Shown here: positions 36,020 to 46,562 of the stretch, one piece after another
Layout of the letters: each line of letters opens with the position of its first letter
Numbering within the stretch: the stretch's first letter is position 1
Origin: Silicimonas algicola
GTDB lineage: Bacteria > Pseudomonadota > Alphaproteobacteria > Rhodobacterales > Rhodobacteraceae
NCBI RefSeq assembly: GCF_003148765.1
Contig: NZ_QGGV01000005.1
Location: 1-64,000, forward strand
Length of the DNA stretch: 64,000 nucleotides
Reading direction: 5' to 3'
Program-made: the position numbers and the translations under genes
The notes under the pieces: model-generated
What the model saw: the letters and a program-made list of their open reading frames with translations, nothing else
Told to the model about the DNA's origin: nothing
The model's database searches: none

Positions 36020-36478
36020 TCATGCAGGGGCGAGGGTTTTGCTCATCAGGATGGCGTCGATCCGGCCCGATGCGGCGCGGTAATAGGCACGCCTGACACC
36101 GTCCTCGGACCACCCCGCGCGGGCGTAGAGCGCGCGTGCCGGTGCGTTGGTCGCGGCGACTTCGAGGAAGGCGCGGGAAGCGGAGCGGCCGCGGGCGGCG
36201 GCCTCGAAGGCGGCGAGCGTTTCAGCGCCGAGGCCCCGGCGGCGGACGTCCCGGTGAACGGCGATGGTGAGAAGCTCGGCCTCATCCAGAGCAACCCTGC
36301 CGAGGGCGAAGGCGAGGGGCTCTGCCCCTCGCGCTCCCCGGGATATTTCGGGACCGATGAAAGGCTGTGCCAGGAAGACTGCCGGATCGGCGAGAAGGTC
36401 CGCGAAGTCCTTCTCCGACCAGGGCGCGGGCACCTCCATCGCGGCGGCGTGGATCGCGGCGAGGGCGGCGGGCGTCAC
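36020..36478 (-). CDS. rimI: Ribosomal-protein S18 alanine N-acetyltransferase-like GNAT protein
   Basis: 152 residues from a GTG overlapping the tsaB stop (GTGA). GNAT motif A reads AELLTIAVHRDVRRRGLGAETLAAF, and VAATNAPARALYARAGW is typical RimI. Adjacent tsaB supports rimI. Odd feature: residues about 38-55 (PFIGPEISRGARGAEPLA) are encoded by a palindromic repeat inserted in frame (36311-36362), between the FLAQ and FALGRV blocks that are normally close together. Confidence 0.85.
   Translation of the reverse strand: MTPAALAAIHAAAMEVPAPWSEKDFADLLADPAVFLAQPFIGPEISRGARGAEPLAFALGRVALDEAELLTIAVHRDVRRRGLGAETLAAFEAAARGRSASRAFLEVAATNAPARALYARAGWSEDGVRRAYYRAASGRIDAILMSKTLAPA
36311..36362 (-). repeat. 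Dispersed palindromic repeat inserted in frame in rimI
   Basis: The stretch holds a perfect nine-base stem (GCGAGGGGC / GCCCCTCGC, three-base loop), then GCTCCCCGGGATATTTCGGG and ACCGATGAAAG. On the reverse strand it reads CTTTCATCGGTCCCG AAATATCCCGGGG followed by the hairpin. The same order, CTT...AAATA..CCGGGG then hairpins, is found at 46499-46560. Such elements are frequent between genes in Rhodobacterales, from memory; here it lies inside a coding sequence without breaking the frame. Confidence 0.7.
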
Positions 36479-37056
36479 GGCAGGATGACGGGCGGCGGAT
36501 CCGAGGCCGGGGCCGCGTCGGCGGGGCGGATGTAGAGGGGAGCGGGGCGGGGGATGTCGGTGGAGACCGAGAGGCGGCGGGCGGCGAGGCGGGCGATGAT
36601 CCCGGCCGGGTTTCCGTTCAGCGGGAGCGGCCGTTCCGCCGCTTCGGCTTCTGCGAGGATCGGCGCACCGCCGTGCGTGAAATCCTTCAGGTAGACTTGC
36701 CCGCGCGGGGCCGGAAGCGCCACGGTCGAGAGTCCCGCGACCTCGCGGACCACGTCGAACCCGTCGACGCCGATTGCAGGGATGCCGAGCGAGAGCGAAA
36801 GCCCGCGCGCGGCCGAGACCGCAATGCGGATGCCGGTGAAGTTGCCCGGCCCGGTCCCGACCGCGACGGCGTCGAGATCGGACCACGCCGCGTCAGCCTG
36901 GGCCAGCACTTCCTCCAGCATCGGGAACAGCCGCTCGGCCTGACCCTTGCCCATCTCCTCGAGCCGTTCGGCTAAGATCCGGCCGCCCATCAGCAAAGCG
37001 GCCGCGCAGTGCGCGGCCGATGTGTCGAAAGCGAGGATCGTCGGTTCAGACGGCAA
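36475..37056 (-). CDS. tsaB: tRNA threonylcarbamoyladenosine biosynthesis protein TsaB
   Basis: 193 residues. ILAFDTSAAHCAAALLMGG (ASKHA phosphate-1 motif) and VGTGPGNFTGIRIAVSAARGL are characteristic. It scaffolds TsaD in forming t6A37 on ANN-decoding tRNAs. It overlaps nfuA upstream by 11 bases and rimI downstream by four, so the three are probably co-transcribed. Confidence 0.92.
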   Translation of the reverse strand: MPSEPTILAFDTSAAHCAAALLMGGRILAERLEEMGKGQAERLFPMLEEVLAQADAAWSDLDAVAVGTGPGNFTGIRIAVSAARGLSLSLGIPAIGVDGFDVVREVAGLSTVALPAPRGQVYLKDFTHGGAPILAEAEAAERPLPLNGNPAGIIARLAARRLSVSTDIPRPAPLYIRPADAAPASDPPPVILP

Positions 37057-46497: not shown

Positions 46498-46498
46498 A

Positions 46499-46562
46499 GC
46501 TTCTTCTTGGCGAAAATACTCCGGGGGTGAGGCGCGCAGCGCCGAGGGGGCAGCGCCCCCTA
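46499..46562 (+). repeat. Intergenic palindromic repeat of the family also found in rimI
   Basis: CTTCTTCTTGGCGAAAATAC and TCCGGGGGTGA are followed by two hairpins, GGCGC-GCA-GCGCC (46531-46543) and GGGGGC-AGC-GCCCCC (46546-46560). It overlaps the stop codon of the convergent DUF1489 gene and may serve as its terminator. The order of parts matches the copy at 36311-36362. Confidence 0.6.

Follow-up and report, generated by a model that had tools for sequence, protein, structure and literature searches.

A dispersed palindromic repeat read in frame within rimI of Silicimonas algicola and in the same RimI loop of two other genera

The rimI gene of Silicimonas algicola contains a palindromic segment that is read as part of the protein, and this raises the question of where such a segment comes from and whether it entered rimI once or several times. 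Rickettsia provides the best-known examples of palindromic insertions read in frame. We analysed the segment within a 64-kb stretch of the genome (the window), across the remainder of that genome, and in other Rhodobacteraceae; the features discussed are listed in Table 1.

Table 1. Positions of rimI, its neighbour and the repeat features in the window
Feature	Position	Strand	Basis
rimI (predicted ribosomal protein S18 alanine N-acetyltransferase), host of the insert	36020..36478	-	ORF, PDB and fold matches
Presumed tsaB, upstream neighbour of rimI	36475..37056	-	ORF; stop overlaps rimI start
Palindromic repeat copy in frame in rimI, 54 bases	36311..36364	-	Covariance model R1, 62.3 bits, E 8e-13
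Left motif CCTTTCATCGGTCCCG of rimI copy	36349..36364	-	Letter comparison
Core AAATATCCCGGGG of rimI copy	36336..36348	-	Core search
9-bp stem with AGA loop of rimI copy	36312..36332	-	Sequence, folding
Second copy in the window, of the TTCTTCTTGGC subtype and with an additional stem in the middle	46498..46562	+	R1 46.1 bits at 46498-46559; context 3'/3'

The host gene and its insert

The host gene starts with a GTG codon that overlaps the stop codon of its upstream neighbour, which from its sequence we take to be tsaB, and encodes a protein of 152 amino acids. The product matches RimI structures in the PDB by sequence (5isv, E 3e-17, and 2cnm), and an AlphaFold model (mean pLDDT 93) has the same two entries as its best PDB fold matches, with a TM of about 0.8; with both a GNAT fold and an S18 N-acetyltransferase sequence, the protein is predicted to be RimI. 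The insert occupies codons 39–56 and is read as PFIGPEISRGARGAEPLA (frame EISRG). It is modelled as a coil between strands 34–37 and 56–63, and pLDDT falls to 66 at residues 41–50, with other blocks at 86–98 except for the C-terminal block at 72; the loop that carries it is, in the model, the turn that joins strands two and three (beta2-beta3), and RimI activity would probably be unchanged by the insert.

The repeat within rimI was recovered by a covariance model, R1, built from 46 aligned copies with no rimI copy among them, and ranks third by score among the 56 copies in the genome; the model match proper covers positions 36364–36316. The in-frame palindromic repeat claimed in the preliminary description is thereby confirmed by an independently built model, and the perfect nine-base-pair stem (GCGAGGGGC-AGA-GCCCCTCGC) and the core were also found as described, the extent being 54 bases (36311–36364) rather than 52 (36311–36362). 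In a separate alignment test the rimI copy outscores 200/200 shuffles, and its left motif agrees at 15 of 16 bases with the intergenic copies L008 and L004 of its own genome. Folding of the 61-nt rimI stretch was equalled by 6 of 200 shuffles (z -2.4).

Set against RimIs of at most 60% identity, all of them from other genera (this genus is represented by the one genome), the repeat in rimI is best read as an insertion. The comparison RimIs that were read do not share its residues, as had been proposed. A count of 18 extra residues given earlier holds for the codons that the repeat contributes and not for the net lengthening of the loop, which is about 14 (21 residues here and 7 in the usual row L050). 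Loop length also varies among RimIs without the repeat (e.g. L121, L122 and L094).

A repeat family at the 3' ends of genes

Within the window alone, core and hairpin do not occur beyond chance, and a search for the core with up to two mismatches found 2 matches where 0.95 were expected, which is at chance level. Genome-wide the core occurs 12 times exactly and 19 times with up to one mismatch, with none for the reversed control; 17 of these 19 matches have the left motif and hairpin in common, and the other two lack both. R1 at E<=0.01 identifies 56 places, with matches spanning 35–67 bp and a conserved 29-base left part preceding the hairpin in family copies; there are thus 55 copies besides the one in rimI, where the preliminary description had allowed that there might be none, and the related intergenic element that it placed near 46499 is a member of the family, lying between convergent genes. 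Family copies are unusually open, with a mean of 5.28 of six reading frames free of stops and 4.02 in composition shuffles. A search of Rfam with 16 loci and E up to 1 gave no match at gathering level, the sole match being a weak one of L004 to RF02883 (25.9 bits; gathering score 40). Three candidates that had been called inside genes (L177, L178 and L184) are bare core matches without a hairpin and were dropped.

Gene contexts, assigned with a home-made codon-usage gene caller, show that 28 of the 56 copies lie between convergent genes (3'/3'), 16 between tandem genes with the hairpin at the 3' end, seven between tandem genes in the reversed orientation and three between divergent genes, with two called inside genes. 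The hairpin is therefore at the 3' end of a gene in 44 of the 54 intergenic copies, and the repeat often starts 0–8 bases past the stop codon. Convergent placement (28/54 copies) exceeds the 11/70 seen among neighbouring gene pairs in the window (p 8e-10), and the orientation bias among tandem genes, 16 vs 7, is not significant (p 0.09). Of the two copies called inside genes, L205 was rejected by eye as a weak ORF overlapping the stop of the preceding gene, and the rimI copy is the only convincing intragenic one among the 56. In G394, a metagenome-assembled genome (Paracoccaceae bacterium MO_188.B57), we note a copy (L188) that supplies the last residues of a protein judged by eye to be a probable oxidoreductase; the end of this protein falls at the hairpin or just beyond it.

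In three surveys of plasmid records the best place lay outside every listed gene in 25/25, 4/4 and 22/22 annotated records, these surveys having overlapping records, an incomplete gene table, only the best place per record and two more unannotated records each. Most of the plasmids with the repeat are from Rhodobacteraceae genera such as Leisingera, with one each from Rhodovastum and Xylanimonas, which have shorter matches. On neither side of the hairpin is there a T-run in the 16 intergenic copies examined of the 56 (0–3 T in 10 flanking bases in 16/16), and in these the absent T-run rules out a textbook intrinsic terminator.

The family is abundant in Rhodobacteraceae and rare outside. By R1 there are 56 copies in this genome (G000), at least 108 in G394, at least 96 in G397 (also a metagenome assembly), 51 in G116 and 48 in G079, counted among 150 candidates scored for each genome, so that the high counts may be low; G201, G395 and G396 have none among the same number of candidates. 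When the filters were tightened and no more than 15 candidates were scored in each genome, at least one match was found in 310 of 394 Rhodobacteraceae genus representatives, this genome included. A class-level survey gave matches in 10 of 385 genomes, five of them Rhodobacteraceae (again including this genome) and the other five with 1–4 matches each; R1 was trained on copies from few genomes, and distant subtypes may be undercounted. G428 and G560, genomes of about 1.9 Mb each from another family of the same class, have four and three weaker R1 matches and possibly contain a related family.

The Y1 transposase (PF01797) was considered as the mover of the repeat and was not found in any of the five element-rich genomes (G000, G079, G116, G394 and G397), nor in G185, G201 and G396, in a search whose control was positive in 5 of 14 genomes. 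Four PF01797 matches (three at E about 1e-39 and one partial) are present in G151, which has nine repeat matches, and one partial match in G395, which has no repeat. Because the five element-rich genomes are without a Y1 transposase, a RAYT is not needed for abundance of the repeat, and one may have acted in the past.

The same RimI loop in other genera

The RimI loop was read in 110 and 28 loci, 138 rows that come partly from the same genomes, and the repeat was found in three genomes only: this one, G394 (L036) and G116 (L130). The L036 copy is read in the frame KYPG and has an intact stem (52.4 bits), and the L130 copy is read in the frame KYPE and is decayed (23.2 bits, E 5e-4), with part of the stem lost and the frame kept. 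All three copies have the same orientation and lie above 200/200 shuffles in the alignment test, and their cores start 28 (G000), 24 (L036) and 33 (L130) bases after the codon of a conserved F. As rimI was searched deliberately, these three cases are not comparable with randomly sampled proteins. Other long RimI loops (L037–L039, L041, L045, L116, L119, L121 and L122) do not score above shuffles as repeat remnants, and those of L040 and L117 are borderline, as 8 and 18 of 200 shuffles, respectively, reach their scores. Long RimI loops in which no repeat is recognisable (L037–L041, L045, L116 and L119) occur in genomes that the tree places near this one, and three genomes with long loops are those in which R1 found no copy at all (G201, G395 and G396).

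Elsewhere, internal in-frame copies number three among 126 examined (2/62 in G394, 1/46 in G397 and 0/18 in G079). Those in G394 are in rimI, a copy also present in a gene-blind list of exact cores, and in bchB, and that in G397 is in bchB; a second call in G397, at the start of an apparent NAD synthetase, and the single inside call in G079 were judged by eye to be probable wrong starts, the rejected calls being L270 and L355. Four of the 51 copies in G116 were examined and one of them is internal, this being the rimI copy itself. The two bchB copies, L241 (G394) and L348 (G397), occupy the linker that precedes the C-terminal domain. Both run opposite to the gene and share a reading frame, and they are of different subtypes, CATCGACC and CGCCTGTTC. 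BchB was identified from PDB matches of L241; because the linker aligns poorly, the reading of these copies as insertions rests on the repeat itself.

A tree of 29 genomes was constructed from SdhA, SdhC, SdhD, TsaB and RimI with gappy columns removed (1204 columns). To account for the three genomes whose RimI carries the repeat it requires three changes, of which supported branches demand at least two, and a single clade of the carriers appears in 0/200 bootstrap trees. The AU test rejects such a clade with a p of 5.7e-5, a value that presumes a group named before the tree, and the carriers were known and earlier trees had been viewed beforehand. This genome belongs to a supported set of nine genomes, and the repeat is not recognisable in any other RimI of that set; G394 and G116 lie outside it, without a firm place. 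With RimI and TsaB alone a single clade of the carriers is allowed (AU p 0.20; pairs p 0.31–0.52), and a FastTree tree of tsaB and rimI is weakly resolved and places G394 beside G397, unlike another tree. Since these two genes alone do not reject a single origin, the rimI allele may have been transferred or inherited in common.

In this genome the two left motifs closest to that in rimI are both from its own copies. In G394 the closest is of the CATCGAC subtype of that genome, with one G397 copy equally close, and five of the six best motifs are its own. The motif in G116 rimI is closest to G397 copies, only three other G116 copies having been compared, and the G397 bchB copy has a G394 copy as its nearest. 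Across four genomes the nearest left motif is in the same genome for 137 of 178 copies, with ties counted as own. Taken with the tree, separate insertion is the better reading, and we regard at least two events in rimI as quite probable.

Explanations and comparison with known repeats

The explanation that we favour, and think likely, is that the insert belongs to a REP-like Rhodobacteraceae repeat that is mostly kept out of genes, survives in indel-tolerant loops, and has hit RimI more than once. The insert would be one copy of a hairpin-forming family whose usual site is a few bases behind stop codons, where the transcribed hairpin probably forms or shields the mRNA 3' end. Copies would be duplicated to new places, no Y1 transposase having been found in the five element-rich genomes, and the rarity of intragenic copies suggests that such landings are nearly always purged by selection. 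A landing that is in frame and in a length-tolerant loop could survive, since the repeat has a high GC content and most of its six frames are open. The RimI loop would have been hit in this lineage and, on balance, separately in one or two others, the different subtypes, offsets and frames marking separate events, and the BchB linker appears to show the same. Among the copies inspected by eye, neither target duplications nor terminal inverted repeats were recognised.

The simplest objection, that there is no insertion and that an ordinary variable loop resembles the repeat by chance or reflects an assembly error, draws on the variable loop length of many RimIs, but a 62-bit match to an independent model (E 8e-13) refutes chance, the frame and neighbouring genes are intact, and two other assemblies have the same repeat at this loop; we give it a negligible probability. 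It is also very improbable that the insert was retained for a function, either as a regulatory hairpin (a terminator, attenuator or mRNA processing site) or as a useful peptide loop under selection: the hairpin is strong and the family is located at the 3' ends of genes, but the T-run is absent from all 16 intergenic copies examined, most RimIs read have no repeat, and in the G116 copy part of the stem is gone while the frame is kept. A single ancient insertion into rimI, inherited or recombined with the allele and then altered by indels and by gene conversion from resident copies, would fit the shared orientation of the three copies and the one clade allowed by rimI and tsaB, and long loops in several relatives could be its remnants (as with the borderline L040 and L117). 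We nevertheless consider it unlikely: the 29-genome tree rejects one clade and no bootstrap tree contains it, the other RimIs of the nine-genome set have no recognisable repeat, with G394 and G116 outside that set, frame and offset differ among carriers, and the remaining long loops score as shuffles, three of the genomes concerned being free of the repeat.

Were survival decided by tolerance alone, one small loop would not be expected to yield three cases, though rimI was searched deliberately, and it may be asked whether rimI is a true insertion hotspot, its DNA or transcript being preferred by the route of spread. The RimI loop carries the repeat in three genera at positions no more than 9 bases apart, and in two genomes the BchB linker holds copies of different subtypes that agree in orientation and frame. 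Indel-tolerant loops alone may nonetheless account for the survivors observed, no shared target sequence was noticed in an informal look, and only three genomes among the 138 RimI rows carry the repeat; we therefore find a hotspot doubtful. Somewhat less doubtfully, and still tentatively, we raise the possibility that the repeat, without a Y1 transposase, inserts independently and repeatedly at the same few protein sites (the RimI beta2-beta3 loop in three genera and the BchB linker in two genomes), with an open frame each time, two of the RimI cases being of the local subtype, and with a real insertion preference. If this were true, nature would have provided a repeatable experiment in which repeat DNA lengthens proteins in parallel.

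Compared with repeats described elsewhere, the family resembles REPs, which are described as short many-copy hairpins, mostly between convergent or tandem genes and often under 20 bp from 3' ends, with a few copies in frame within genes (PMC3733652). The 56 copies here share with the GTAG and CGTC superfamilies of that source the many hairpin copies near 3' ends and the rare in-frame ones. They differ from REPs in that GTAG or its complement is in 0/46 aligned copies, CGTC or its complement is anywhere in the copy in only 3/46, and a conserved 29-base left part precedes the hairpin. According to Table 1 of the same source, a Y1 REP transposase is a feature of the GTAG superfamily (PMC3733652), and such a transposase is lacking in 5/5 element-rich genomes here. 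In two Xanthomonas species, different REPs are reported to lie at nearly the same recB site (PMC3733652).

The likeness to Rickettsia RPEs that had been proposed stands for the open, in-frame protein sequence in a loop and fails for intragenic frequency, 54 of the 56 copies being intergenic and a 55th a weak ORF. RPEs are described as palindromic, open and in frame inside housekeeping genes, about 150 bp long, and inside ORFs in nearly half of cases (PMC10969869). Like RPEs so described, the present repeat is read in frame in unrelated genes (rimI in G000, G394 and G116; bchB in G394 and G397), but few copies are in ORFs (1/56 here and 3/126 in three other genomes). Enterobacterial repeat units, described as MITE-like, are 103–168 bp long and intergenic with occasional in-frame protein copies (PMC2759123); the present family resembles that description in being intergenic with occasional in-frame copies, and differs from it in its R1 matches of 35–67 bp; by eye no terminal inverted repeats were recognised in it. 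A literature search, judged by titles and the starts of abstracts and reaching few subscription journals, found no description of this repeat, and the core and hairpin strings occur there in four papers, all unrelated by title.

Apparent in-frame repeat insertion is now seen in Rhodobacteraceae, where distant genera share the protein sites concerned, and comparison can ask whether inserts survive where proteins are indifferent to them or are steered to sites. Repeats of this kind may repeatedly become protein sequence, and the family raises the question of what spreads a REP-like repeat in the absence of a Y1 transposase. Copies beside genes also present an annotation issue, as they can yield spurious ORF starts and C-terminal tails.

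Two further aspects of the copies are noted. Several in G394 and G397 (e.g. L036, L233, L253 and L259) extend beyond the hairpin with a right arm resembling GCGCGACGGCGAAGCCGGCGCAAAACCTC, and because the arm continues in this way the full-length element may be about 90–100 bp; the L036 rimI copy has a similar arm. Others form head-to-head pairs (L004/L005 and L209 in this genome, L220 and L236 in G394, and L269 in G079), with left ends facing, hairpins outward, and cores about 51 or about 150 bases apart.
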